Below are positions 9,977 to 42,898 of a stretch of DNA of 44,551 nt, piece after piece. The notes under the pieces were generated by a model. That model worked only from the letters and a program-made list of their open reading frames with translations. It did not search any database and had not been told where the DNA came from. Where the stretch lies: the NCBI GenBank assembly GCA_017302875.1, contig JAFLCA010000006.1, positions 1 to 44,551 of the forward strand, read 5' to 3'. The stretch is from Deltaproteobacteria bacterium. GTDB taxonomy: Bacteria; Bdellovibrionota_C; UBA2361; JAFLCA01. The position numbers and the translations under genes were made by a program. Position 1 is the stretch's first letter. Each line of letters starts with the position of its first letter.

Positions 9977-10049
9977 GATCAGATACTCCAACGTGCGACC
10001 TAACTACGTACGGAAAATCCGTAAGACACCGGGCAACATAACCCAGGGC

Positions 10050-10319
10050 CTACACGGTCGCTCAGAACAGTCCATGAACTGATCTAAGCGGCCGTGTAGC
10101 GCAGTAGTCACAGGGAGGAGTTAACCTTCAGAAATTGACAGAACTGCAAGGCAGAACGGACACCACAAGTCGGCCCTGCCTTACAGTTCAGAGTAAGCTT
10201 CTTCTCGAAATAGTTGAGTGAAAGAGCGCGCAATGCCACCTAGGCAATGACAGAGCAGTGTTATGCGAAGAAAGCGCTCACGGGTGACGTAGCGCGGATA
10301 AGTCTTTGAAAATGACCAG
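10050..10319 (-). promoter_or_regulatory. Structured leader or RNA upstream of the small basic gene
   Basis: Between the usp stop and the small basic gene there are over 400 non-coding bases with repeated pairing potential. A 13-bp stem with one G-T pair joins 10050-10062 to 10087-10099 (CTACACGG.. with ..CCGTGTAG). A 14-bp stem with one mismatch joins 10141-10154 to 10176-10189 (GAACTG.AAGGCAG with CTGCCTT.CAGTTC). A shorter GAGCGC/GCGCTC pair lies near 10225-10285. Read on the minus strand these would fold in series in the transcript ahead of the gene starting at 9976. I recognise no known riboswitch or RNA class. Confidence 0.5.
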
Positions 10320-10379
10320 GAAGTAGTCAGAGGGGCTTGCTTCGGCTGGCAGTTCCCAATACCACGCAGGCCCTACTTC
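10320..10379 (-). terminator. Imperfect hairpin after the universal stress gene
   Basis: GAAGT (10320-10324) pairs with ACTTC (10375-10379). Inside it AGGG-CTTGC (10331-10340, one bulged G) pairs with GCAGGCCCT (10366-10374). On the minus strand the hairpin starts five bases after the usp stop codon and is followed by CTGGTCATTTTC, which is moderately T-rich. It probably ends the usp transcript, but the T tract is short. Confidence 0.45.
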
Positions 10380-10383
10380 GGTT

Positions 10384-10845
10384 CTAGTGTCCGGCGTGAG
10401 CTGGTACAACCAACACCGGGCACGGCGCATGCCCCAACACTTTTTGCGTCACACTTCCAAGAATGGCGGAAGCAACAGCGCCTTTGCCGTGGCTAGCCAT
10501 AATAATAACGTCGCAGTTCTGAGCGCGTGCATAATCACAAATTTCTTGAGCCGCAGAGCGAATCGAAAGAATCACTTTCGTTTCAATTTTACGCCCCGCA
10601 AAATGCTGGGCAGCGAGCTTGCCAATCCGCTCAGTCGCCGAATCCAAGATCTCTTTGCGATACTCATCGATACGTTCGGGAAGAGGGATTTCTTCGAACA
10701 TCGAGGGTGGGACAACCCAATCAGAAACTACCGATAGCAGCGTTATCTTTCCGTCTTCATGGCTGACTTGCTTGAGAACAACGCGGAAGGCCTCGACGGA
10801 AAAGTCGGAAAAATCGGTGGTTACCAGTACGTTCTTGAAATGCAT
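10384..10845 (-). CDS. Universal stress protein (UspA family)
   Basis: The 153-residue product is a single-domain universal stress protein of usual length. It opens with the first strand KNVLVTTDFSDFS. The nucleotide-binding region includes VIIMASHGKGA and then LGSVTQKVLGHAPCPVLVV, the family's glycine-rich signature and closing strand. Such proteins bind ATP or AMP, form dimers in the cytosol and support survival under starvation or stress. The start at 10845 has AAAGGGGA upstream. It lies downstream of the HU gene on the same strand, past a strong terminator, so it probably has its own promoter, which I could not identify. Confidence 0.95.
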   Translation of the reverse strand: MHFKNVLVTTDFSDFSVEAFRVVLKQVSHEDGKITLLSVVSDWVVPPSMFEEIPLPERIDEYRKEILDSATERIGKLAAQHFAGRKIETKVILSIRSAAQEICDYARAQNCDVIIMASHGKGAVASAILGSVTQKVLGHAPCPVLVVPAHAGH

Positions 10846-10886
10846 GCTCTATCCCCTTTTGCTGCAAACCTGTCGGATAAAATAGA

Positions 10887-10921
10887 AAGGCGTAAGCCTT
10901 GCACTACAAGACTTACGCCTT
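10887..10921 (-). terminator. Rho-independent terminator of the HU gene
   Basis: AAGGCGTAAG (10887-10896) and CTTACGCCTT (10912-10921) form a perfect 10-bp stem with a 15-base loop. On the minus strand the stem is followed by TCTATTTTATCC, a T-rich run, as expected for an intrinsic terminator about 75 bases after the HU stop codon. A partial extra copy of the arm (CTACGCCTTACGC) follows at 10922-10934 on the plus strand. Confidence 0.8.
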
Positions 10922-10997
10922 CTACGCCTTACGCGCCTTTCGGCAACATAAGACAAACTGCTCCAAGACAAGAATGGCCTGGAACAGCCTTCGTTAA

Positions 10998-11417
10998 CTA
11001 CAGAACGGCTTCCTTGAGAGCCTTAGCTGCAGTGAAACGAACGCGCTTCTTAGCGGAGATTTGGATCGTCTCGCCAGTTGCAGGGTTACGTCCCATACGG
11101 GCCTTGGAGTGTCTAACATACATCTTGCCAAGTCCGAGGAGCGGGATCTTGTAGCCACGGCGCAACGAATCCTTGATGAACGCTGCAATGTCTTCGCAGA
11201 GTTCCTTAGCGGCAGAGCGCTTCGCCAATCCGCAGAATCCACGGATGTTGTCGATGAACTCAGACTGCGTGTAGCTGAGGGTGCTGCTGTTGCGTGGCTT
11301 AGTAGCAACGCGGGCCTTTGGGGTTGGCTTCTCAGCGGCAACCATCTTGGTGGCTTTAGCTGCAGTCTTCTTAGGGGCGGCTTTCTTTGCCATTTTCTTA
11401 GCGGCTTTCTTTGCCAT
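10998..11417 (-). CDS. HU-family DNA-binding protein with Lys/Ala-rich N-terminal tail
   Basis: The product has 139 residues, compared with about 90 for ordinary HU. Residues 46-139 are a complete HU/IHF domain: TQSEFIDNIRG in the first helices, IPLLGLGKMYVR in the beta saddle, and GRNPATGE (109-116) in the DNA-contacting arm, closing with RFTAAKALKEAVL. Residues 1-45 are rich in Lys, Ala and Pro (MAKKAAKKMAKKAAPKK), resembling eukaryotic H1 tails and the tails on mycobacterial and Deinococcus HU proteins. HU bends and compacts DNA as a dimer; the tail probably adds non-specific DNA contacts. It has a strong promoter-like upstream region and its own terminator, so it is a single-gene transcript. 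Confidence 0.95.
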   Translation of the reverse strand: MAKKAAKKMAKKAAPKKTAAKATKMVAAEKPTPKARVATKPRNSSTLSYTQSEFIDNIRGFCGLAKRSAAKELCEDIAAFIKDSLRRGYKIPLLGLGKMYVRHSKARMGRNPATGETIQISAKKRVRFTAAKALKEAVL

Positions 11418-11449
11418 AGGTCGGTAGTCTCCTAAAATTAATCATCACG

Positions 11450-11491
11450 AATGCCAGAGAATCTCTCAAAAACAAGCGAAAAAATGGCATT
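11450..11491 (-). promoter_or_regulatory. Inverted repeats in the HU leader
   Basis: AATGCCA (11450-11456) and TGGCATT (11485-11491) are perfect inverted copies. The palindrome AGAGAATCTCT (about 11457-11467) lies inside them. If transcription starts just downstream of the predicted -10 box, both would fold near the 5' end of the HU mRNA. They could be a stability element or an operator. GGAG at about 11429-11432 is the likely ribosome-binding site. Confidence 0.4.
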
Positions 11492-11500
11492 TCGGGGTCA

Positions 11501-11530
11501 ATATTAGGTACAAAAGTATAGGGAAAGCAA
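11501..11530 (-). promoter_or_regulatory. Predicted sigma-70-type promoter of the HU gene
   Basis: On the minus strand TTGCTT (11530-11525) and TAATAT (11506-11501) are separated by 18 bases. This matches the TTGACA/TATAAT consensus at eight of twelve positions with near-ideal spacing. It lies about 85 bases upstream of the HU start codon in an A/T-rich region. Confidence 0.5.
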
Positions 11531-11700
11531 TAAAAAAAATGGAGCGTGTCGAAACAATTCTTCTCTGAAAGCAGCATTTTTAAAGGCTAAAAATGCATGA
11601 AGTGAGCAGAACACCTCTTGCGCTTTTGCGCCAAATTGCCTTGGGTTAGACTTCAACAGCCAGATGCCATTACATAAAAAGGCCTAAAATTAAGGGTTTT

Positions 11701-12366
11701 ATGCGTCACCGCCCGGTTTGCGTTGCTGTTCTGCCGCCTCTCCTCGCGCTCTTGGCAAGCTTGTGCTTCCATCAAAAATACGCGCAGGCTCAAGAATCCG
11801 CTCAGCTCTACGTGAATCCTCAGTTCAAGTTTGAACTACGCTATCCGCCAGCGCTCGTGCCGGTTGAGTCGCACAATGCGACTGCGCCGCTGCTCCTGCG
11901 CACAGGGGGGAGCAACTATCCGACGTTTAACGTAATCGTAGAACCCCAGACGTTAAACCCCTCAGAACTCACCCTGGCAGGCCAAACTGAGCGAGTCCTC
12001 TCCGCCTATCGGCAACTAGGGATGACTGATGTTGAGTTGTTGAGTTCGCGCGAACTTGAACTACACGGAAGAGCGGCAAAGCAAATCGTGCTGAGATACG
12101 GCTCTGAGCCCAACAGCTACACTTCAGCCGTAACGCTCCTTCCTGCGGATAATTTCCTATATACGTTGACGTTTATTGAAAAGAGCGCAGCTTTTGCCGG
12201 CTCAAAGAACATCTTGGATTCTATGCTAGCTTCGTTTCAAAGCTCAGATGGGGACCCGGCACGGCAAGTGCCGGGTCAATTGAACAGCGCATCTCTGATG
12301 GTTTACTTCTCCTTTGGTTTATTAGCCTTTTTAATCGCCCTGGCTTTCCTCAAGCGACGGCGATAA
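11701..12366 (+). CDS. Exported protein with C-terminal membrane anchor
   Basis: The 221-residue product opens with a signal peptide (RHRPVC, then a hydrophobic stretch to about 24, with a likely cleavage site after YAQAQ). The middle (about 30-185) is a predicted alpha/beta domain with YVNPQFKFELRYP at its start and LPADNFLYTLTFIE near its end. This is reminiscent of PsbP-like or YP-type ligand domains, but I cannot name the family. A polar linker is followed by one membrane helix (about 197-217) and a basic tail, LKRRR. The protein should sit outside the inner membrane on a C-terminal anchor. A perfect palindrome encodes part of the linker. It is transcribed alone, divergent from the HU gene. 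Confidence 0.8.
   Translation: MRHRPVCVAVLPPLLALLASLCFHQKYAQAQESAQLYVNPQFKFELRYPPALVPVESHNATAPLLLRTGGSNYPTFNVIVEPQTLNPSELTLAGQTERVLSAYRQLGMTDVELLSSRELELHGRAAKQIVLRYGSEPNSYTSAVTLLPADNFLYTLTFIEKSAAFAGSKNILDSMLASFQSSDGDPARQVPGQLNSASLMVYFSFGLLAFLIALAFLKRRR
12253..12277. repeat. Perfect 10-bp palindrome inside a coding region
   Basis: GACCCGGCAC (12253-12262) and GTGCCGGGTC (12268-12277) are exact inverted copies around a 5-base loop. They are in frame within the polar linker of the exported protein, encoding DPARQVPG. The G/C richness stands out from the surrounding sequence. Confidence 0.6.
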
Positions 12367-26739: not shown

Positions 26740-28251
26740 ATGACTGAAGCGCCTCACACCCATTCCTGCACTCATTGGACCCCCAGCTGCAAGCTTCTCG
26801 CCTTGTTGGCCATACTCATCATCTTTGGCAAAACGATTGCTTTTTATCTGCTTGGGCAGGAAAGGCTGATTTGGGATTCGCATTGGTACCTGACCCTCGC
26901 TGAGCAGCTCGCCAGCACGGGAAGCTACACTCTCGGGGATGGCGATTTTCATTCCAAGTACCCTCCAGGCTTTCCCATCCTAGTGGCAGTTGCGGGGCGG
27001 CTCCTGGGCAGCTTCCAGACGGCCGGCGCCTTAATTGTCTTTACGGCAAGCGTCTTACTATGCCTTCTCGTCTTTCTACTTGGCCGTCGACTCGCGGAGG
27101 AACGAGAGCTGCCTGGAAAATCCGCTGGAGTTCTGGCCTGCCTCCTTTTTGCCACCCATCACCTGAGCCTCGTCCACAGCAACCTGATACTAACCGAGCA
27201 GGTTTTTGCGTTGTTTGCGGTGGCGTGCCTGATGTTCGCCACCCGCCTCCGGCTTACTCCTAGGGATATCTTCTTGGCCCTCATTCTCGCTGGCGCCGCT
27301 TCGCTGATACGGTATGAGGGCTTGTTGCTGTTTCCAGTGTTGGCGTGGAGTTGGAGAAGAAGCGCGGATCAGCTTCCCGCCCAGGCCTCGAAACAGCTTT
27401 TGATGGGCTTACTGGTTGTTGGATTAGCGTGGAGCGCATGGATCGCGGCGCTGGTGAGTCATGGGGCGTCTGCCTTTGGCGGGCAGTACGGAAAAGAACT
27501 TGCACAGCTCAGCTGGGCAAGCGCGCTCGACTTCCTACTCCTTGCTCTTTGGATTGGCCCGCTGTTTCTGATCCTAAGCTTTATAGGTCTAGCTAAGATT
27601 TTGCGGCAACCAAGCTCAACCTCTGCCGCGCTCGCGGCATTCTGCTCGCTCTATTTTATTTCTCACCTGTGCTGGTGGTTCAGCGACATTCGATTTTATG
27701 TAGTATTGCTCCCCTTCCTTGCTGTGTGTGCTGGCTTCGCCTTAATCGACTTCACTCATCGCCTGTTTCGCGATTCAAAGGGGCTACGCATAGCGTTCCT
27801 CGCGCTAGCTATGGCTGCGCTTTGCTCGGAGCAACGCGGCATGCTCCACGCCACTGAGTATGAGTATCGTCGGTACAATGCCCTCTACTTGCATCAGTAC
27901 GACCCGATCGAGGAATTGGGTACGTGGTCGCTTAAGAATCTTCCGCAGGGAACCTTTGCCGTCCCCGAACCTGCGGTCTATCGGCATTATCTTTTGGGTA
28001 GAGAAGTTATTCCGTATTCCGCCCTACCCCAAGTTCTCAGCTCGGGAGATGCACAAGTCTACCTCGTCATTGATAATCTGCATTTTCGAAATGAGGATCT
28101 GCAGAGCGCCCTGGATGGAGCGATTAAAGTTAGGACGCCCCACGCAGAGGTCCGGGAATTACCCGTTCAAATTCTGTATAAAGCCGAGCGCAGGGAGACC
28201 GCAGACGATACTCGCTATGCCGCTGTAGCGGCCATTAAGGGCAAGCTTTAA
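26740..28251 (+). CDS. GT-C type membrane glycosyltransferase (GT39/ArnT-like)
   Basis: The 503-residue product has about ten to eleven membrane helices and a soluble C-terminal part of about 130 residues (from about 375). The first periplasmic loop has LIWDSHWYLTLAEQLAST and FHSKYPPGFPILVA. These match the acidic D-x-x-x-Y motif and the KYPPG motif of the dolichyl- or polyprenyl-phosphate-mannose transferase superfamily. Such enzymes move a sugar from a lipid carrier to protein or lipid A-like acceptors on the outer face of the inner membrane. The substrate is not readable. CCGGGG precedes the ATG. It is divergent from nuoC. Confidence 0.85.
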   Translation: MTEAPHTHSCTHWTPSCKLLALLAILIIFGKTIAFYLLGQERLIWDSHWYLTLAEQLASTGSYTLGDGDFHSKYPPGFPILVAVAGRLLGSFQTAGALIVFTASVLLCLLVFLLGRRLAEERELPGKSAGVLACLLFATHHLSLVHSNLILTEQVFALFAVACLMFATRLRLTPRDIFLALILAGAASLIRYEGLLLFPVLAWSWRRSADQLPAQASKQLLMGLLVVGLAWSAWIAALVSHGASAFGGQYGKELAQLSWASALDFLLLALWIGPLFLILSFIGLAKILRQPSSTSAALAAFCSLYFISHLCWWFSDIRFYVVLLPFLAVCAGFALIDFTHRLFRDSKGLRIAFLALAMAALCSEQRGMLHATEYEYRRYNALYLHQYDPIEELGTWSLKNLPQGTFAVPEPAVYRHYLLGREVIPYSALPQVLSSGDAQVYLVIDNLHFRNEDLQSALDGAIKVRTPHAEVRELPVQILYKAERRETADDTRYAAVAAIKGKL

Positions 28252-28582: not shown

Positions 28583-30100
28583 GTGAATGTTCTGAAGTTT
28601 TCCCTTCGCGATGACGAGCCCGCGCGTACGGCAGTCGCCGCTGTAGTTCTGCTTTTGTTACTAGTATCCCTGCGTAGCCTAGTTTTCATCTTTTGGGGCC
28701 AGGCTCACTTCGATGCCGATCAGGCCATTCTCGGCTTAATGGCATATGACATTTCCCGCTTACATGGCCTCGTACTATTCTTCTACGGGCAAAAATACCT
28801 ACTGGGCATTCTTGATTGGTTAGCGGCTCCGCTTTTTCTGCTCTTTGGCCCATCGGTGAGCGCTTTGAAATTTCCTCTGCTTCTATTAAACGCAGGCGCG
28901 ATCTTTCTACTCTTTCGTCACCTACGAGAAGACGCGCGGCTAAAGAGCACCGCGGCCGCACTGTGTTGTCTTATACTTGCGGTTCCCTCGGTAGCGATAG
29001 CGAGTCGATTGGTCGAGGCACAGGGCGGCAATATCGAACCGATATTGGCGGTTCTCTTGTTATGGGCCTTTCGCGGCTCCCCCATCACCGCTGGCTTTAT
29101 CGCGGCTATCGGCTACCTCAATCGCGAGTTTACCCTCTACGGAATCATCGCACTGTTCATACTGCAATTCCCTCGCTCACGATCTGAAGTGCGCCCATTC
29201 CTGAAAAACTGGGCGATCGCTGCCATCGTCGCCGTAGTGACGCGCCAGGTTTTTCGAAGGCTTGCTCGTATTTCGCTGAACTATTTCGCAATCTCAGCCC
29301 CGAAGCCCGAGCTCCAACCATGGTCAGAAATCTCGATAAACTGGAATTACTTTGTTAGTCATTTGCTGCCGAGTCTGTTCGGCGCCGAAGTTCAACCTCT
29401 TTCCGCTTTTAATATTCTCAGTGCAGAGACTTCTGGTTCTTTTGCAGCCGGGCTTTCTCTCGTCGTCGCGGTTTGCGCGGCCCTGATTCTTGCGCTGCAG
29501 CTTCGCAAATCGCTGTGGAGCAACCAGCAAGCGCAGTTTCCGCTCTTCCTTATTTTGACGGGGTTCCTGTCAGCGCTGAGCTTTATCCTATTCCGTATCG
29601 GCGTGCGCGATCTGATGTGTGTAAAGTACGTGCTGCTTTTTCTCTTCTTCCCTATCGGAATTATTGCCTTGGGCTTTCAAGCCCAGCACCATCGACGGCT
29701 GTTAGTGCTCGTAGCAGGTGGGCTGTTGGTTTGGGCTGCCTCCAATATGTTCGATCATTTAAAGCTGTGGCAGGAGTATCTGGTTCAAACTCCGCGCGAT
29801 GAAATCGCGGCGCTTGAATCGGCGCTGCTTGAACGAAAACTTAAATGCGGCAGCGCGCCATACTGGACTGCCTATCCCCTGGCATTCCAATCACTCGGAA
29901 GGCTCAAGGTGGCGTCATCGACGGCCGTACGCATTCCGGAATTTCAAAGCGCCGTGGAGCAATGCCAGGAACAGAAATTTTGGATTGGAGACACTCCCGA
30001 GTGTAGAAACGCGGAGAAAATCGAGCGCTGGTATCTCTGCACAGAAGATCCTACTCGCAAGTTGAGCCGCTCACATCGCAAACATTCTCGGCTTGGCTGA
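28583..30100 (+). CDS. Polytopic membrane protein, GT-C-like
   Basis: The 505-residue product has about ten membrane helices. The first outer loop contains FDADQAILGLMAYDISR, which has the D-x-D/E spacing of GT-C glycosyltransferases, followed by LFFYGQKYLLGILDW. A C-terminal soluble region (about 400-505) contains CGSAPYWTAYP and a cysteine pair (SAVEQCQEQ and TPECRNAEK) that could form a disulfide. It begins with GTG at 28583, five bases after the Trm112-like stop. It is probably a lipid-carrier-dependent sugar transferase, although sequence evidence is weaker than for 26740-28251. It converges on the next gene with a 4-base gap. Confidence 0.75.
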   Translation: MNVLKFSLRDDEPARTAVAAVVLLLLLVSLRSLVFIFWGQAHFDADQAILGLMAYDISRLHGLVLFFYGQKYLLGILDWLAAPLFLLFGPSVSALKFPLLLLNAGAIFLLFRHLREDARLKSTAAALCCLILAVPSVAIASRLVEAQGGNIEPILAVLLLWAFRGSPITAGFIAAIGYLNREFTLYGIIALFILQFPRSRSEVRPFLKNWAIAAIVAVVTRQVFRRLARISLNYFAISAPKPELQPWSEISINWNYFVSHLLPSLFGAEVQPLSAFNILSAETSGSFAAGLSLVVAVCAALILALQLRKSLWSNQQAQFPLFLILTGFLSALSFILFRIGVRDLMCVKYVLLFLFFPIGIIALGFQAQHHRRLLVLVAGGLLVWAASNMFDHLKLWQEYLVQTPRDEIAALESALLERKLKCGSAPYWTAYPLAFQSLGRLKVASSTAVRIPEFQSAVEQCQEQKFWIGDTPECRNAEKIERWYLCTEDPTRKLSRSHRKHSRLG

Positions 30101-33282: not shown

Positions 33283-36200
33283 ATGACTACAAAAGATTGT
33301 TCACAGCGCGGCTTTAAAGCACTCATGAGCACCCAATTTTTCGGTGCGCTCAATGACAACCTGCTTAAAACTATCGTCTCATTGGTAATCGTTGCATCCT
33401 CGAGCGAGAGTGCCTCAGCGCTGAGTCTCGCAGGCGCCTTGTTCGTTGTGCCCTTCTTACTATTTTCTTCGTATTCCGGCTTTCTGGCCGATCGCTTCAG
33501 TAAGACCAGTGTCATTCGAATTGTGAAGTGCTTTGAACTGGCGATTGTGTGCCTCGCAGCCGTGCTCTTGGCTCAGAAGCACCTCAGTGGCTTGATGGTA
33601 GTGTTGTTTCTGATGGGTGTGCACAGCGCCCTCTTCAGTCCGGCCAAATACGGAATACTTCCGGAAGTGCTCGATTCTGAGCAGCTCTCCAAAGGCAACG
33701 GGTACATGCAGTTTTGGACCTTCGTTGCCATTTTAGTGGGCACCGCCCTTGGCGGGGTGCTGATGGCTCAGGCGAAACAATCCATGCTGCTTCCAAGCGC
33801 CGCCCTTATCCTCGTCTCACTGGGAGGTTTGGCATCCGGATTTTTTGTTACGCGAGTAAAGCCGGCCAATCCTCAAGCAAGCTTCGCATGGAACCCCTTC
33901 GGCGAGGTGTACTCCGCCGTCAAAGCCATTCGCAAGGACCGTGCACTCTACTTGACTCTCATCGCGCTTTCTTACTTTTGGTTCTTAGGAGCAGTTTTTC
34001 AGCTCAATATCTATTTGTACGCCAGTGAGATGTTGAAGCTAGATGAACTCCATACCGCGATGCTCGTGACGGCCTTAGCTCTAGGAATTGGCGTCGGCAG
34101 CATCTTGGCCGGCAAAGTCTCCGAGGGCAAAGTGGAGATGGGCCTCGTGCCGCTGGGGGCTATCGGCATTTCGCTTTTCAGCATGTTGCTCTCAGTTTCA
34201 TATTTCTCCTATACGCTTTCGCTCGTACTCCTTTTTGCCTTGGGAATGAGCGGTGGATTCTTCGTCGTGCCGCTTTCGGCATTCATGCAACAGCAAAGCC
34301 CCCCGGATTCGCGCGGGCGCTATCTGGCAGCAAACAATTTCATTAACTTCGTCGGCGTACTCGCCGCATCACTCGTGCTTTGGATCTTTAAGTCGCAATT
34401 CGGCCTCACCTCGGCCCAATGTTTTCTAGTGGTGGGCTGCTCGACGATTGGTGTCATTGCCGCCATTTTTGAAACTCTTCCCGAAGCTTTTGTTCGCTGC
34501 CTCAATTGGTTGTTAATGCACAGCATTTACCGCGTGCGTGCATACAACATTGAAAATGTTCCCAGCACTGGAGGTGCGCTCCTCGTTTGCAATCACGCCT
34601 CCTTTGTTGACCCCTGCTTGCTGCTCGGATCGGTTGAACGCCCGATTCGATTTCTTATGTTCCGGCCGATCTATGAAGCGCTTCCCGTGCGCTGGGTAGC
34701 CCGCACGATGAAGGCGATACCAGTCTCTCCGTTCGATAAAGCCGAGGACATTGCCGCATCACTGAAACAAGCTCAGGATTTGCTGAAGGCCGGAGAGCTC
34801 GTCTGCATTTTCGCTGAAGGCAGCATAACCCGCACCGGCAACCTACTGCCCTTTCGCAAAGGCTTCGAGCGCATCATGCAAGGCCTTGATGCTCCGATTA
34901 TCCCGGTTCACATCGATAGAGTGTGGGGAAGTATTTTCAGTTTCAAGAACGGAAAGTTCCTATGGAAAATTCCGAAACAGATCCCGTACCCCATTAGTGT
35001 CTCGTTCGGGAAGCCCATGCCGGCGGCCTCCAAAACGTACGAAGTACGAGAAGCTGTACAGGAACTTGCCAGTGAGGTCTTCGAACACCGTGAGTCTCAG
35101 AAAGAAGTTCTGCAGTCACAATTCATTCGTGAAGCGCGACGCCATCCTTTGCGCGCTTGCATGTCAGACAGCAGCGGCAGACATCTCAACTACCTTTCAG
35201 CACTAATTGGCAGCTTAGCCTTGGCCGCTAAGTTTGAGCGCACTTCGCATCAACAAAAGAACATTGGAATTCTTTTGCCCCCGGGAGTGCCGGCCGCACT
35301 CGCCAACCTCGCAACTCAAATCAGTGGGCGAGTCCCCGTTAATCTGAACTACACCGCCTCTTCAGATTCATTACGCTCTGCTTGCGAGCAGTGTGACATA
35401 CGGACAGTGATTTCGGCACGCGCGCTCACCGACAAACTAAAAATCGATCCCCTGCCCGGAACAGTCTTCATTGAAGATATCTTCAAATCGATTTCGTCCG
35501 TCGAGAAGCTAAAGGCCGCATGCTGCGCGCTTTTCATGCCTTTGAAGCTTATCGCTCGCTCCTATGGATGGAAGACCGGCGATGCCGCTTCGCTAGCCAC
35601 CGTGATATTTTCAAGCGGCAGCACCGGCGCCCCCAAGGGGGTAATGCTCTCGCATGCCAACATCTCTTCGAACGTGCACAGTTTGTACGATCTCTTTCAG
35701 ATCGACCGCCGTGATTCGGTCCTCGGCGTTTTACCGTTTTTTCACTCGTTCGGGTTCACCGGCACGCTGTGGTTTCCCTTACTTTCTGGAATTCATAGCA
35801 CCTATCACCACAATCCGATGGACGCCTCGAAGATCGGAGAGCTGGCCGCCGCGCAGCGCTCGACGATTTTCATGGCTACACCCACATTCTTGATGGCCTA
35901 CATTCGCAAATGCGCTCCTGAGCAATTCGCATCCTTCCGCTACGTCGTAGTCGGGGCGGAAAAGTTGAAATCCGCGATTGCTGAAGCCTTCGAGGAAAAA
36001 TTCAATCTCGTGCCGCTCGAAGGCTACGGATGTACGGAACTTTCGCCGGTCGCGATTTTGAATATTCCCGACTTTGAAGCGGCCCGCATGAAGCAAATCG
36101 GAAACAAGAAAGGAAAGGTCGGGCATCCTATTCCAGGCGTGGTGGCAAAGATTGTCGATGTGGAGTCGGGTCAGTCCCTGCCGCCCGGCAAGGAGGGATT

Positions 36201-36693
36201 GCTGTTAGTGAAGGGCCCCAACGTCATGCTTGGATATTTGGGACAGCCCGAGAAAACTGCCGAGGTTATCCAGAACGGGTGGTACGTCACCGGCGACATC
36301 GCAGCAATCGATCATGATGGATTTGTCGCGATTACCGATCGCCTCTCGCGCTTCAGCAAGATCGGTGGCGAAATGATCCCGCATGTCAAATTAGAAGAAG
36401 AGATTCAGCGCGCGCTTGGCGCGACTGCTCCAGTCTGCGTGGTCACCTCCCTCCCCGATGAAAAGAAGGGAGAACGTCTGGTGGTTCTGTGTACCGTTCC
36501 TGTAGACGCTGCAGTGATCGCAGAACGACTATCTGCCGCAGGGCTGCCAAATTTATGGATTCCCAAAAAAGACGCCTATTTCGGTATTTCTGAACTTCCC
36601 ATGCTGGGAACAGGCAAGCTCGACCTTAAGCAGGCGCGGGAGCTAGCGAAAAAGCTCAGCGCAACGCAGGAAGAAGCCCCTGCTACTTCCTGA
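33283..36693 (+). CDS. LplT-acyltransferase-acyl-ACP synthetase fusion (lysophospholipid recycling)
   Basis: The 1136-residue product joins three activities. Residues 1-405 are an MFS transporter of the LplT type (12 helices, including FGALNDNLLKT and FSPAKYGILPEVL). Residues of about 420-600 are a PlsC/LPLAT acyltransferase with NHASFVD (Asn437, His438, Asp443) and EGS (512-514). Residues of about 625-1130 are an AMP-forming acyl synthetase with SSGSTGAPKG (777-786), GYGCTELSPV and the hinge motif VTGDIAAIDHDGFV. In E. coli, LplT and the two-domain Aas are separate. Together they bring lysophospholipids across the inner membrane and reacylate them. The fusion places all steps on one chain. 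Confidence 0.95.
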   Translation: MTTKDCSQRGFKALMSTQFFGALNDNLLKTIVSLVIVASSSESASALSLAGALFVVPFLLFSSYSGFLADRFSKTSVIRIVKCFELAIVCLAAVLLAQKHLSGLMVVLFLMGVHSALFSPAKYGILPEVLDSEQLSKGNGYMQFWTFVAILVGTALGGVLMAQAKQSMLLPSAALILVSLGGLASGFFVTRVKPANPQASFAWNPFGEVYSAVKAIRKDRALYLTLIALSYFWFLGAVFQLNIYLYASEMLKLDELHTAMLVTALALGIGVGSILAGKVSEGKVEMGLVPLGAIGISLFSMLLSVSYFSYTLSLVLLFALGMSGGFFVVPLSAFMQQQSPPDSRGRYLAANNFINFVGVLAASLVLWIFKSQFGLTSAQCFLVVGCSTIGVIAAIFETLPEAFVRCLNWLLMHSIYRVRAYNIENVPSTGGALLVCNHASFVDPCLLLGSVERPIRFLMFRPIYEALPVRWVARTMKAIPVSPFDKAEDIAASLKQAQDLLKAGELVCIFAEGSITRTGNLLPFRKGFERIMQGLDAPIIPVHIDRVWGSIFSFKNGKFLWKIPKQIPYPISVSFGKPMPAASKTYEVREAVQELASEVFEHRESQKEVLQSQFIREARRHPLRACMSDSSGRHLNYLSALIGSLALAAKFERTSHQQKNIGILLPPGVPAALANLATQISGRVPVNLNYTASSDSLRSACEQCDIRTVISARALTDKLKIDPLPGTVFIEDIFKSISSVEKLKAACCALFMPLKLIARSYGWKTGDAASLATVIFSSGSTGAPKGVMLSHANISSNVHSLYDLFQIDRRDSVLGVLPFFHSFGFTGTLWFPLLSGIHSTYHHNPMDASKIGELAAAQRSTIFMATPTFLMAYIRKCAPEQFASFRYVVVGAEKLKSAIAEAFEEKFNLVPLEGYGCTELSPVAILNIPDFEAARMKQIGNKKGKVGHPIPGVVAKIVDVESGQSLPPGKEGLLLVKGPNVMLGYLGQPEKTAEVIQNGWYVTGDIAAIDHDGFVAITDRLSRFSKIGGEMIPHVKLEEEIQRALGATAPVCVVTSLPDEKKGERLVVLCTVPVDAAVIAERLSAAGLPNLWIPKKDAYFGISELPMLGTGKLDLKQARELAKKLSATQEEAPATS

Positions 36694-37564: not shown

Positions 37565-38539
37565 ATGTATACCGTGCCATCGGTCTTAAGAGCTCAGTCG
37601 GTTCAAGGTGTTACTAACGCGGCGCAGGACGCGGATAGCTCCATTGACCCTGCCGTCAAGGCTAAGTTTGACACCTTCATGAAGGGCGTTTTAACGCCTG
37701 ATAAGGAAAATAACGTCAACGAAGAGGAACTATTTGCCGGGCTCATCCAAGAGCGCATTTATTCGCTCAAAGGCCAAGAAGTCGGAGATCAGTTCAAGGC
37801 GGTGTTCGATAAGAACAAAGCTCAATGCATGGGCCAGAATGGCTATTGCTTCACTGAAAAGGCCGCTCGCGACTCCCTGGTCGAGTTCCAATCGAGCGGC
37901 AAGCTAACACTGGACGAAGCCAATAAAATCCACTCCGAAGCTTTCGAGGCAGCACAATTAGACGATAACAAAACTGCCCTCTTTGACGGACATGGCGGAC
38001 CGAATGATCCAACCATGGCAGTTGCGCAGATGGAGGCAGCGCTGCTTGCTGCTCAAACGATGCTACAGAAGATATCTAGTGGCGCCGTTGCAGCGCCAAA
38101 TCATGCCATCACTGCGGAGTATCCAGCGCTCGGAACGATTGCTCTCCGAACAGATATTACGCAATTGGGCGGTACCGGTGGTGATCCCAAGATCGGCTCG
38201 AAAGTAAAATCCGAAATTACGCCGCGACGCTATAAGATCGACGGAAATGAGGGCATGCTGTGGAAGCCCTTTGCAGAGCACACCGGCAAGCTTATCATGA
38301 TGCTTCCGCCGACCTATACGGGGCAAGTTCAGAGCATCACCCTGCGCAATAGCGAGACAGGTCATAAGCTCGATGCAGGACGGTACTTCTCCGTAGGCGC
38401 AGGCCCGACTGGGCGTGAAAAATGGATCTTCAAGAAGCCGGGAGACAAGTACCCCGACGATGTCACCGTGCAAATCAAGTTCCGTGACGGCAATATGCAA
38501 ACGATGCATATCGCTAAGCCCGGCAAGCGCTACGACTAA
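37565..38539 (+). CDS. Unrecognised two-part protein
   Basis: The 324-residue product has no signal peptide or membrane segment. The N-terminal half (about 25-165) is helical and charged. LTPDKENNVNEEELFAGL (about 43-60) looks like an EF-hand loop, but the residue at position 12 is Phe where Glu is expected, so calcium binding is doubtful. An alanine-rich helix (about 140-165) follows. The C-terminal half (about 205-324) has alternating strands and the segment GQVQSITLRNSETGHKL, suggesting a beta-sandwich or carbohydrate-binding-like domain. AAGGA lies 9 bases before the ATG. Its neighbours give no clear hint of function; a surface or flagellum-related role is only a guess. Confidence 0.7.
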   Translation: MYTVPSVLRAQSVQGVTNAAQDADSSIDPAVKAKFDTFMKGVLTPDKENNVNEEELFAGLIQERIYSLKGQEVGDQFKAVFDKNKAQCMGQNGYCFTEKAARDSLVEFQSSGKLTLDEANKIHSEAFEAAQLDDNKTALFDGHGGPNDPTMAVAQMEAALLAAQTMLQKISSGAVAAPNHAITAEYPALGTIALRTDITQLGGTGGDPKIGSKVKSEITPRRYKIDGNEGMLWKPFAEHTGKLIMMLPPTYTGQVQSITLRNSETGHKLDAGRYFSVGAGPTGREKWIFKKPGDKYPDDVTVQIKFRDGNMQTMHIAKPGKRYD

Positions 38540-38621: not shown

Positions 38622-40559
38622 ATGCTGGCCCGCCCCCCACAAGCTCAAGGCTTCGAGCTTTCGCCGATTAAGGCGATGGAACTTGCTGCCTCCAAAATTC
38701 CCGGCGTTATTTCATTGGCGCAGGGCATCCCCAGCTTCAAGACTCCAGAAGTCATCAAGCGCTTCGTGCATGAAAAGATCGATCAAGGTCTGTGTGATAA
38801 ATATTCGTTAACTTTGGGACTGGCAGAGCTGCGCGAAGAAATCGCACTCTCGCTCCAAAAAGAGAATCTGCGCTACGACCCGGAAAGCGAGATAATTGTA
38901 ACCGCAGGTTCGATCGAAGGAATTACTGCCTCTGTGCTCGCAAGTACGGAGCCTGGGGATGAAGTCATCGTGCCCTCTCCCACCTATGCCTCCTATCGAG
39001 GATCTTTGGCAATTGGCGGCTGTGTCACGCGATACGTTGAGCTTGATGAAGACAATAACTTCGACTTCCACGTCGAGCGCGTGCGCGAGGCAATTACTCG
39101 CCGCACCAAAGCGATTCTCTACTGTAGCCCCAATAACCCGACCGGTACCCTTTATTCCGAAGCCAAAACCCGCGCGATTATTGACCTCGCGATTAAGAAT
39201 GATCTGACCGTCATCATCGACGAAGTGTACAAGGACTTTTACTACACGGCGGACAAACACTTTACTCCCGCCCTCATCCCCGAAGCTCGCGATCGCGTCA
39301 TTCGGGTCTGTTCGTTCTCGAAGGCTTTCGCCATGACGGGCTGGAGAGTCGGGTTCGTCCATGCTGATGCCGCGCGCATTAGGAAGATCTTGAAGTTCCA
39401 CGATGCGATGGTCACCTGCGCGCCTGTAGTTTCACAGTATGCGGCAATTGCGGCCTTACGTTTCGGCGATCCTTTCTTGGCTGAGTTTAAGCAAGAATTT
39501 AAGCGACGGCGCGATTACGCCATCAGCATGCTCGATCAACTATCGCATGTACTCGATTACCAGCTCCCTCGCGCCACCTATTTTGTATTTCCTCGCATCA
39601 AGGACATCGTCCCGCTCGCTAAGGATAGTCATAAGCTGGCCTACGACATCCTAGAAAAGGCTCGCGTCGCAGTCGTGCCTGGCACTGCCTTCGGTCCCTC
39701 GGGCGAGTCGCATATTCGCATGACGTACGGCAAAGAGATGGAGGATCTCCAGGAGGCATTTCATCGTTTGCAGGATTACTTCACCGGGATTCGCAGCAAA
39801 GCATCCAGCACGCCAGCTGCGAATGCCACCCCTGCGGCACCGGCAGCCGATAAGCCTTTACGCGCTTGCGCAAAAAAGGCGCTGGCTCTGGCCTCGCGTA
39901 TTTACCTGAGACGGAATCACTCCCTGATAGTTGGTATTGCTGGAACTCGCGGTAAAACAGTCTTCAAACGAACCATCACCGAACTATTGCGAGAACACTT
40001 TCCGACCCGCGCAAACTTTCTGTCCTACAACACCGATATCGGACTACCACTTGCAATTTTGAATCTGGATAACCCGCGCACCGCGATGCAAAAGGCGATC
40101 TTCCCCTTGCGGCTGGCTGCAAAGGCCTTGTTCGGTCGAGAACGAGAAAAAGTATTGGTGCTGGAATACGGGGTCGGATCGCCCGGAGACGCCAAGGCCC
40201 TGCTGCGAATCGCGCGGCCAACCTGGCTGGTCGTAAGTGATATCGCTTCACCAGATCCAAGCATCAACACGGATGCAATGCGCTCGGAAATCGCGGAGCT
40301 AATTAAAGCGACTCCCATGAAGAAAGTTATCTGGTGCGCGGAGGACCCGCTCATACTGGATTTGGAGCCTACGCTGGACGAGGCAAATTCGGTGCGGCTG
40401 TTCGACATCGAAAAAGCCTCTGTGGCCGGCGCGACCCGTCGCTACCCTCTCGCCCAGGAGGCAGTCGGCCGAAGCGCTCAGCTTGCGATTGTAGCCGCGG
40501 TAAAGCTCGCTGAGCGACTTTCCGTGCCTGAAGCGCAGATTGCCAAGCATTTGGGCTAA
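38622..40559 (+). CDS. Aminotransferase fused to a Mur-ligase-like ATP-binding domain
   Basis: The 645-residue product joins two domains that are normally separate. Residues 1-395 are a complete fold-type I aminotransferase of the aspartate aminotransferase class: VISLAQGIPSF, CSPNNPTGTL, the PLP lysine in SFSKAFAMTGWRVG (Lys234) and HIRMTYG with the carboxylate-binding Arg. An Ala/Pro-rich linker (about 396-420) follows. Residues of about 433-645 are a Mur ligase central domain: GIAGTRGKT (P-loop, 441-446), LSYNTDIGLPLAIL, VLEYGVGSPGDA with the magnesium-binding Glu, and ARPTWLVVSDIASPD. The N- and C-terminal Mur domains are missing. The reaction is unknown; an ATP-using step coupled to transamination of an amino acid is an inference. 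Confidence 0.9.
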   Translation: MLARPPQAQGFELSPIKAMELAASKIPGVISLAQGIPSFKTPEVIKRFVHEKIDQGLCDKYSLTLGLAELREEIALSLQKENLRYDPESEIIVTAGSIEGITASVLASTEPGDEVIVPSPTYASYRGSLAIGGCVTRYVELDEDNNFDFHVERVREAITRRTKAILYCSPNNPTGTLYSEAKTRAIIDLAIKNDLTVIIDEVYKDFYYTADKHFTPALIPEARDRVIRVCSFSKAFAMTGWRVGFVHADAARIRKILKFHDAMVTCAPVVSQYAAIAALRFGDPFLAEFKQEFKRRRDYAISMLDQLSHVLDYQLPRATYFVFPRIKDIVPLAKDSHKLAYDILEKARVAVVPGTAFGPSGESHIRMTYGKEMEDLQEAFHRLQDYFTGIRSKASSTPAANATPAAPAADKPLRACAKKALALASRIYLRRNHSLIVGIAGTRGKTVFKRTITELLREHFPTRANFLSYNTDIGLPLAILNLDNPRTAMQKAIFPLRLAAKALFGREREKVLVLEYGVGSPGDAKALLRIARPTWLVVSDIASPDPSINTDAMRSEIAELIKATPMKKVIWCAEDPLILDLEPTLDEANSVRLFDIEKASVAGATRRYPLAQEAVGRSAQLAIVAAVKLAERLSVPEAQIAKHLG

Positions 40560-40728: not shown

Positions 40729-41589
40729 ATGGGTGTAATTCTAGGACTGATCGGCGTAACGGCTTCCGTGCTTGGCGGTTTCGTCATGGCCGGCGGTCCG
40801 CTTCCCGTGTTGGTGCAACCTAACGAATTCGTCGTCATCGGCGGCGCCGCGATCTTCAGCCTTGTCATCTCGAGTCCCGGGCAAGTTCTCAAGAGCCTCG
40901 TCCCTGCCATCATGGGCGCCATTAAAGGCAGCGGTGTCGACGGCGGCACGTATAGAGATCTGCTGGGACTAATGGCCAGCGTATTTGACACCATGCGCAA
41001 AGAAGGCGTGCTCGGAATCGAAGGCGATTTGGCTGACCCGCACAAAAGCCCGCGCTTCAATAAATTTCCAAAAGCGCTCAAGGACCACCATCTCATGGAG
41101 ACCTTCACCGGCGCGTTGCGCCTCTTCGTGGACGGCGTGGTGAATGCTTTTGATCTCGAGAGACTCCTCGATACTGAAATTGAAACTCACCACGAAGAAG
41201 CCTTGATTGCTCCAAGCACGATTAAGAATTTGGCTGACTCGTTCCCGGCGCTCGGAATCGTGGCTGCCGTTCTCGGAATTATCGTGACGATGCAACACTT
41301 GGATGGTCCACCGACTGAAATCGGTCACCACGTCGGTGCCGCTCTCGTAGGAACGATGCTCGGAATTCTCTTCTCATACGGATACGTAGGTCCGATCGCG
41401 ACCAAAGTCGAAAGCGTCGTTCGTGACCAGACCAGCGTCTACAAATGCGTGAAGGCCGGTCTCGTGTCGTTCGCCGGTGGCGCACCACCTCAGGTTGCAC
41501 TTGAATTTGCGCGCAAAACAATTCCCTCGTCCCTGCGGCCAACTGCCGAGGAACTCGAAGAGATCATGAAGGAAGCCAAGAAGCAGTAA
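40729..41589 (+). CDS. motA: Flagellar motor stator protein MotA
   Basis: The 286-residue product is of normal length for the E. coli-type MotA. There are four membrane helices: two near the N-terminus (ILGLIGVTASVLGGFVMAG and the next segment) and two near 200-260 (GIVAAVLGIIVTMQHLDG and GTMLGILFSYGYVG). The long cytoplasmic loop between has MRKEGVLGIEGDL, the charged region that contacts FliG. AAAGGGA precedes the ATG. The protein forms a pentamer around two MotB subunits and rotates with ion flow. It is 16 bases upstream of motB. Confidence 0.96.
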   Translation: MGVILGLIGVTASVLGGFVMAGGPLPVLVQPNEFVVIGGAAIFSLVISSPGQVLKSLVPAIMGAIKGSGVDGGTYRDLLGLMASVFDTMRKEGVLGIEGDLADPHKSPRFNKFPKALKDHHLMETFTGALRLFVDGVVNAFDLERLLDTEIETHHEEALIAPSTIKNLADSFPALGIVAAVLGIIVTMQHLDGPPTEIGHHVGAALVGTMLGILFSYGYVGPIATKVESVVRDQTSVYKCVKAGLVSFAGGAPPQVALEFARKTIPSSLRPTAEELEEIMKEAKKQ

Positions 41590-41605
41590 ACGCTAAAGGT
41601 CTCCC

Positions 41606-42898
41606 ATGGCAGATGATAAGCCCATCATCATTATAAAAAAGAAAGGCGGACACGGCGGCCATCACGGCGGCGCGTGGAAGGTTGCATACGCCGACTTCGT
41701 TACCGCTATGATGGCCTTCTTCATGGTTATGTGGCTGGTAAACACCGCTGACACGCAAACCAAGAAGAATATCGCGTCATACTTTCGACGTCCCGGTCTC
41801 TTCGAATCGGGGTCCGGAACTCCACTTCTTATAGGTGAGGCCGGTATTCTTAATGACGCTTACGTGCCTCCTCATCCGCAAGAGACGAAGAAAACTGGCG
41901 GTAAGAGCCAAGACGCCGAGCTTCCAAAGCACACCGGCACGGATGAGCTAAAGGACAAGAAGAAACAAGTCACCCTGCGCGGCGAAGAAGGCAAGCAAGG
42001 TGGTCTCAAGGATGCCAAAGGCAAAGTCGGCATGCAGAAAGACAACACCACTGCACAAGGCGAACTTTCAGATAAGAAATCGACCGCGGATATAAAAGCC
42101 GCTGACGCTGAGAAGTTACTCGCTGAAAAAGCCGCTGAACAAATCCGGCAACAAATCGCCACTTCAAAAGACCTGCAAGAATTGATCGGCATTGTGGATG
42201 TGAAAGTCGAAGCAGATGGGCTGAATATAGAAATCATGGATACTGCGAAAAGCTCCATGTTCGCCTCAGGCAGCGCGCGAATACTACCAGATGCACAAAA
42301 AGCCTTCGATAAAATCGGATCCATTATCAAGGGCCTGCCCTACAGCATCGACATCGTCGGACACACGGACGCTAAGCCCTTCTCCTCGCGCCAAGGAGGC
42401 TACGGAAACTGGGAGCTTTCCTCTGATCGAGCCAACGCAGCACGTCGCCTTCTGGAATCAGAGGGTATCGAATCCAAGCGTATTACGAGTGTCGTAGGGA
42501 GAGCGGATAAGGATCTAAAATTCCCAGAAGATCCACAGGCGCCAAGCAATCGTCGAATCACGCTTAAGATGCGTTTCAAAATCAATCAGAACGTGAACTT
42601 TGAGCAGAATCCGAATCTTGTTGAAAATCCCGAACTACTGACGCAGGCAACTCCGGAGACTCAACCAAGCGTTGACGAGAAGACTCCCGAAACGGTGCAC
42701 GAACTGACTCCGGCCGGGAAGAAACCCGCTGCGAATGAAAAGTACGTGCCGAAATCAGTCGTAAAGGCTAAGGAACGCGACGATCTCGTCAAACTTCCTG
42801 ATGCGGATGCTCCGACCGCTCCAGCGGGCAAAGAGTTGGACAAGCTATTCGGGGGCAATCCGGTACTTGGCCCAAATGACCCTTTCTCAAGTTTCTAA
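41606..42898 (+). CDS. motB: Flagellar motor stator protein MotB
   Basis: The 430-residue product has a basic, His/Gly-rich N-terminus (KKKGGHGGHHGG), then one membrane helix AYADFVTAMMAFFMVMWL with the proton-accepting Asp30. A long Lys-rich linker (about 85-190) precedes an OmpA-type peptidoglycan-binding domain (about 200-315, with DIVGHTDAKPFSS and SNRRITLKMRF). A C-terminal extension (about 315-430) is rich in Pro, Glu and Lys and is longer than in E. coli MotB. It anchors the stator to the cell wall. The MotA-like partner and the aspartate suggest a proton-driven motor. Confidence 0.96.
   Translation: MADDKPIIIIKKKGGHGGHHGGAWKVAYADFVTAMMAFFMVMWLVNTADTQTKKNIASYFRRPGLFESGSGTPLLIGEAGILNDAYVPPHPQETKKTGGKSQDAELPKHTGTDELKDKKKQVTLRGEEGKQGGLKDAKGKVGMQKDNTTAQGELSDKKSTADIKAADAEKLLAEKAAEQIRQQIATSKDLQELIGIVDVKVEADGLNIEIMDTAKSSMFASGSARILPDAQKAFDKIGSIIKGLPYSIDIVGHTDAKPFSSRQGGYGNWELSSDRANAARRLLESEGIESKRITSVVGRADKDLKFPEDPQAPSNRRITLKMRFKINQNVNFEQNPNLVENPELLTQATPETQPSVDEKTPETVHELTPAGKKPAANEKYVPKSVVKAKERDDLVKLPDADAPTAPAGKELDKLFGGNPVLGPNDPFSSF

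Follow-up and report, generated by a model that had tools for sequence, protein, structure and literature searches.

A conserved unit of an aminotransferase and a putative MurF-derived pseudo-ligase, fused in one bacterial phylum and encoded as a gene pair in Patescibacteria

The usual products of fold-type-I aminotransferases are L-amino acids. Among enzymes that combine PLP chemistry with peptidoglycan synthesis, the NCBIfam model PRK11930 presumably represents, to judge by its name, a natural fusion of MurF (UDP-MurNAc-tripeptide:D-Ala-D-Ala ligase) and alanine racemase. In E. coli, Wolbachia and Chlamydia, two fold-type-I PLP enzymes, MetC and GlyA, act in place of alanine racemase (PMC3935232).

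Here we describe a protein in which a fold-type-I aminotransferase is followed by a domain derived from MurF. It is encoded in a stretch of 44,551 nucleotides (the window, meaning the whole of the DNA analysed) from contig JAFLCA010000006.1 of a Deltaproteobacteria bacterium assigned by GTDB to Bdellovibrionota_C. The unit formed by the two parts is real and conserved, and it is undescribed as far as the open-access literature that we searched is concerned, where neither a unit of aminotransferase and MurF nor a D-alanine route for Patescibacteria (CPR) turned up. An earlier sequence-only reading of the window had likewise known of no described enzyme of this form, and our searches found none.

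A fusion in one order and a gene pair in Patescibacteria

The protein is encoded by a single uninterrupted frame of 645 codons, from ATG to stop (Table 1), as the sequence-only reading had proposed; the coordinates it gave were correct, as were the positions of Lys234 and of the P-loop GTRGKT, and this lysine together with G441, K445 and T446 of the P-loop is invariant in ten fused homologues. The concern that the fusion might be unique to this assembly, or that a frameshift or stop might lie at 39800-39860, is contradicted by what we found: there is no stop or frame break in that interval, and the same fusion occurs in 10 of the 29 genomes analysed from the window's order, distributed over six GTDB families. 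Recurrence in several genomes was also what the sequence-only reading had named as support. Since the fusion is conserved to this extent and ten genomes read through the junction without a break, we rule out an assembly or frameshift artefact. Elsewhere among the 46 genomes analysed from the phylum, the fusion was not detected at the threshold used. The linker between the two halves (residues 392-410) differs between homologues in the alignment and is predicted to be disordered, with pLDDT below 50.

Table 1. Positions in the window of the fusion gene, its parts and its neighbours
Feature	Coordinates	Strand	Basis
Upstream gene, family unassigned; adjoins the fusion in 8 genomes including the window's	37565..38539	+	Pfam scan, locus comparison
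Whole ORF, aminotransferase plus MurF-type middle domain, 645 aa	38622..40559	+	Frame, Pfam, NCBIfam, homologue alignment
Fold-type-I PLP aminotransferase domain, residues 28-383	38703..39770	+	Pfam PF00155, nearest solved structures, predicted structure
Lys234, PLP-binding lysine	39321..39323	+	Invariant column, ten fused homologues
Ala/Pro-rich linker, residues 392-410	39795..39851	+	Alignment; pLDDT below 50
MurF-derived middle domain, residues 411-645	39852..40556	+	NCBIfam, PDB matches, MurF alignment
Walker A GTRGKT, residues 441-446	39942..39959	+	Alignment of fusions and CPR partners
Glu515 of LEYG, the conserved Glu of MurF 'LExG'	40164..40166	+	Kept in 20/21 members
motA and motB, downstream	40729..42898	+	Pfam; locus comparison

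The first half of the protein matches Aminotran_1_2 (Pfam PF00155) over residues 28-383 at 1.4e-62, and N172, D200, Y203, K234, R242 and R366 are invariant across the ten fused homologues in the alignment. With this domain and with the PLP lysine, the Asp, Asn and Tyr and the carboxylate-binding Arg all in place, it belongs to the fold-type-I PLP aminotransferases, in agreement with the full PLP aminotransferase recognised earlier. The predicted structure of this domain has pLDDT values mostly above 90, and the nearest solved structures are those of the aromatic/aspartate aminotransferase of P. horikoshii (1dju/1gd9). Judged from its sequence, the aminotransferase half is intact and most likely an active fold-type-I PLP enzyme. 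The highest NCBIfam score for the protein, 314 bits, was obtained with GntC, the L-enduracididine cyclase (NF041364); we rejected a cyclase of this type, as the score lies below the family cut-off of 415 and the solved GntC (8fft) reached 94 bits against 240 for 1dju. A Pfam scan of the ORF gave no match to the Alr domains PF01168 and PF00842, and a search for viral relatives of the protein returned none.

The same two parts are encoded by separate neighbouring genes in 11 genomes of Patescibacteria. The first pair came from a scan of species genomes and lies on contig L023 of a 0.7 Mb Candidatus Campbellbacteria genome, where the genes for the aminotransferase (9986-11200) and for a Mur-like protein of 259 amino acids (11197-11976) overlap by four bases. 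Ten further pairs (genomes G292, G179, G337, G336, G116, G339, G386, G416, G577 and G361) were found in the class (286 genomes) and phylum (380 genomes) of the Campbellbacteria genome. The genes of all 11 pairs stand in tandem and either overlap or lie within about 60 nt of each other, and the pairs are rare, occurring in about 2% of the Patescibacteria genomes sampled. Those partners that were scanned by Pfam matched Mur_ligase_M, with E-values from 1e-12 to 3e-21. In G361, the aminotransferase frame (L203:2842-3995) is broken in two pieces and the adjoining pseudo-MurF gene is intact.

Among 50 aminotransferases placed in a tree, those that are fused or paired formed one clade (support 99/98), apart from their unpaired relatives. 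In the tree of Mur domains, one branch (100/99) had MurF on one side, apart from the 21 Mur-like domains, and another (100/100) had the fusions on one side; with the root on the MurF side, this would imply a single origin of the pseudo-MurF family. The unit therefore has two parts, which are fused in one phylum and encoded by neighbouring genes in Patescibacteria. Among the closer homologues, identity to the window's protein is 34-42% for the Mur part alone versus 50-59% for the whole protein. Unpaired sister aminotransferases (L128 and L130; genomes G033 and G021) adjoin what appears by eye to be a histidinol dehydrogenase gene, and G021 carries both the fusion and such an unpaired sister.

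The Mur-like half

The C-terminal 235 residues match the NCBIfam MurF model TIGR01143 at 1e-17, and MurF chains in the PDB were matched at 3.6e-5 by the single sequence and at 4.8e-19 by the family profile, which establishes homology to the middle domain of MurF; the Pfam Mur_ligase_M match on this part of the window's protein is sub-threshold (0.053). The structure of the domain is predicted at low confidence (pLDDT about 35-65). It stops where the Mur C-terminal domain would start, and the sequence-only reading was right that the flanking Mur domains are absent. Two CPR MurF proteins that we scanned consist of middle and C-terminal domains only and thus also have no N-terminal domain, so that the special loss here is that of the C-terminal ligase domain. 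The CPR MurFs and the pseudo-MurF domain have a leading helix and an insertion after GLPLxIL in common. More generally, the CPR MurFs scanned (L137, L138 and others) have the insertion after GLPLxIL and no N-terminal UDP-MurNAc-binding Mur domain.

We counted residues position by position in an alignment of 21 Mur-like domains (10 fusions and 11 CPR partners) with 12 MurF proteins. The catalytic His is present in 12/12 MurF proteins versus none of the 21 Mur-like domains, and the carbamylated Lys in 11/12 versus, again, none; from established knowledge of Mur ligases we take these two positions to be catalytic. The C-terminal ligase domain (PF02875) is missing in 21/21, each protein ending before it, and the window's protein therefore falls outside the Mur ligases (MurF) both on the His/Lys pair and on PF02875. 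The Walker A motif GxxGK[ST] is intact in 9/10 fusions, the window's included, and in 1/11 CPR partners, being broken in 11/21 overall; its K and T never vary among the ten fusions, whereas they do among the CPR partners, three of which have Arg in place of the Lys. Two features are retained almost throughout, namely the NxN..G motif after the P-loop (second Asn and Gly in 21/21) and the Glu of LExG (20/21, including all fusions).

Since the C-terminal domain, the His and the Lys are lost in every member and Walker A is broken in about half of them, ligation cannot be the conserved function, and we reject an active ligase. This runs against the earlier proposal of an ATP-dependent ligation of an amino acid by the Mur domain. 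That proposal had named the ATP and magnesium residues as a point to check; the window's copy keeps Walker A and the LExG Glu and lacks the catalytic His and carbamylated Lys. There is thus strong support, at the level of sequence, for reading the Mur-like domain as a pseudo-ligase, and binding of a nucleotide by the window's copy would be possible. The partners in G577 (L202:8088-8813) and G361 (L203:2189-2842) have near-intact P-loops, GITSKT and GNLGKT, and their branches fall between those of the fused domains and of the remaining CPR partners; they are possibly intermediates in the loss of ligase function.

Alanine racemase, gene neighbours and a possible role

Ddl is present in all ten fusion genomes, which implies that D-alanine should be needed there. 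Alanine racemase (Alr), sought in the same ten, is missing from nine, including the window's, most of which have only a short YggS-type protein, as compared with its presence in 27 of the 36 fusion-free genomes of the phylum. The anticorrelation of fusion and Alr gives a Fisher p of 0.0003 when counted by genome and of 0.002-0.015 when counted by family. No D-amino-acid transaminase exceeded the NCBIfam cut-off in the 46 genomes of the phylum, and the window's genome had no match at all. Both Alr and the unit are present in one fusion genome (G015) and in a CPR Campbellbacteria genome (G058). We had considered the CPR as independent support for the anticorrelation and dropped them: Alr is found in 83 of the 286 genomes of the CPR class sample (29%) and is absent from 71%, and one of seven with Alr is no different from that base rate, so that the CPR, which often do without Alr regardless, add nothing. 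Several of the fusion-free genomes without Alr are incomplete (60-86%), and small genomes such as G029, G031 and G038 have neither Alr nor the fusion. Given that the fused genes form one clade and that our proxy for the species tree, built from YggS-like proteins, has an unresolved backbone and splits family f4, a small number of events may account for the Alr pattern, and shared ancestry may lie behind it. Other stand-in racemases, for example GlyA or MetC, may also operate in the fusion genomes.

Three of the CPR pairs have cell-wall genes beside them. The order is MurF, Ddl, aminotransferase, pseudo-MurF in G179 (L161) and Ddl, aminotransferase, pseudo-MurF in G337 (L162), and in G116 (L164) a tandem Ddl-Ddl gene adjoins the pair; glmS-like and YvcK-like genes, named by eye, lie close by in G179 and G116. 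For the other 8 of the 11 pairs, no peptidoglycan gene was identified beside the pair. In G007, an Alr-bearing relative, alr itself adjoins a tandem Ddl gene, the type of neighbour also seen in G116. Such two-copy Ddl proteins, of about 780-825 amino acids (L164:4144-6489, L236:1576-3996, L237:2765-5236 and L238:1037-3418), are shared by a Patescibacteria genome and the window's order; a further protein (L240:730-3159) resembles them by size and N-terminus only.

In the window's order, the fusion adjoins not Mur genes but motAB, together with LemA-like and DUF423 genes named by eye, and motA and motB also stand beside it in four other genomes (G001, G002, G004 and G008). The protein encoded by the upstream gene has about 300 amino acids; its core is conserved and its C-terminal RYD invariant. 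It has no Pfam match even at E = 1, and its homologues lie beside the fusion at L151, L152, L153, L156, L157, L158 and L159. Elsewhere in the window, a protein of 1136 amino acids (33283-36693) comprises a major facilitator transporter, an acyltransferase and an AMP-binding (acyl-ACP synthetase-like) domain and so resembles LplT-Aas in one chain. Three ORFs of more than 500 amino acids (26740-28251, 28583-30100 and 60-2024) have no Pfam match at 1e-5, two of them sitting between the complex I operon and a PspA-like gene.

The Ddl and MurF neighbours in CPR and the lack of Alr in most fusion genomes point to a role in peptidoglycan peptide synthesis, and we have moderate confidence in a link of the unit to the cell wall. 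Of the coupled step in cell-wall synthesis that the sequence-only reading had suggested, the connection to the cell wall thus stands, given the conserved partnership, these neighbours and the Alr-poor, Ddl-bearing fusion genomes, and ligation by the Mur domain does not. Our preferred reading, plausible but tentative, is that the aminotransferase supplies an amino acid, at best guess D-alanine, to Ddl and MurF, and that the dead MurF domain acts as a dock or allosteric subunit; we infer both the product and the docking role from genomic context. The aminotransferase half would then feed the last cytoplasmic step of peptidoglycan peptide assembly, D-alanine arising by transamination of pyruvate or by racemisation of alanine in place of the missing Alr. 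The MurF domain would no longer ligate. As a dock or an allosteric subunit, it would most likely link the enzyme with the MurF/Ddl machinery or else detect the nucleotides or peptides that this machinery binds. It is possible, though we hold it loosely, that the unit represents a previously undescribed source of D-alanine, in which an aminotransferase or racemase combined with a dead MurF domain replaces Alr.

It is possible as well that the enzyme makes an ordinary L-amino acid, for example L-alanine, a precursor of diaminopimelate or one of the aromatic amino acids, and that the MurF-derived domain binds ATP or a peptidoglycan precursor and tunes its activity. Indeed, the closest solved relatives are L-specific aromatic/aspartate aminotransferases, the canonical catalytic residues are all present, and nucleotide binding is possible in the fusions, none of which has lost the K and T of Walker A or the LExG Glu. 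However, such an enzyme would leave unexplained both the absence of Alr from nine of ten fusion genomes and the Ddl/MurF neighbours in CPR. It is unlikely that the Mur domain is a neutral remnant, decaying since the fusion. The Mur part does evolve much faster than the aminotransferase, but an open full-length domain persists in all 10 fusions and 11 separate pairs, which diverged very long ago, its NxN..G and LExG motifs are conserved, and a relic that stands as a gene of its own should have disappeared. We consider very improbable a ligase working in trans, for which other Mur or ATP-binding proteins would supply the missing domains to this subunit: a CPR pair can adjoin a full MurF gene (L161), but the His and Lys are missing from the one domain that has been retained, and a C-terminal domain in trans would be no remedy. 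Hardly credible, finally, is the coupled bifunctional enzyme of the sequence-only reading, whose aminotransferase would make an unusual amino acid for the Mur domain to ligate with ATP, as the intact GxxGKT of nine fusions and the conserved Glu are outweighed by losses common to all 21 domains and by a Walker A degenerate in 10/11 CPR partners.

Comparison with known systems

Many bacteria known only from metagenomes keep Ddl and have no alanine racemase, which leaves their source of D-alanine unaccounted for, and the unit would be a specific candidate. Furthermore, a former Mur ligase that serves as a pseudoenzyme partner would add to the evidence on the physical organisation of the cytoplasmic peptidoglycan enzymes.

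Like MetC and GlyA (PMC3935232), the aminotransferase half is a fold-type-I PLP enzyme found in organisms without Alr, but those enzymes belong to other subfamilies and have no Mur domain, and their activity was measured, whereas here it is proposed from genomic context. The archaeal and bacterial aspartate-aromatic aminotransferases (1dju/1gd9; PRK07682/PatA-like) are alike over the whole domain and in the catalytic residues; the fused and paired aminotransferases differ from them in forming a separate clade with a pseudo-MurF partner. The arrangement in PRK11930 is similar in that, going by its name, MurF is combined with a PLP enzyme from alanine metabolism. By name and general knowledge, however, that protein would combine an active MurF with a fold-type-III racemase, whereas the window's combines an apparently dead MurF domain with a fold-type-I aminotransferase at the N-terminus. 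The Mur-like half, for its part, most resembles the two-domain MurF of CPR, with which it shares the middle domain, the N-terminal helix, the GLPLxIL insertion, the LExG Glu and NxN..G. In contrast to that enzyme, it is a putative pseudo-MurF, devoid of the C-terminal domain and of the His and Lys, often broken in Walker A, and joined to an aminotransferase.
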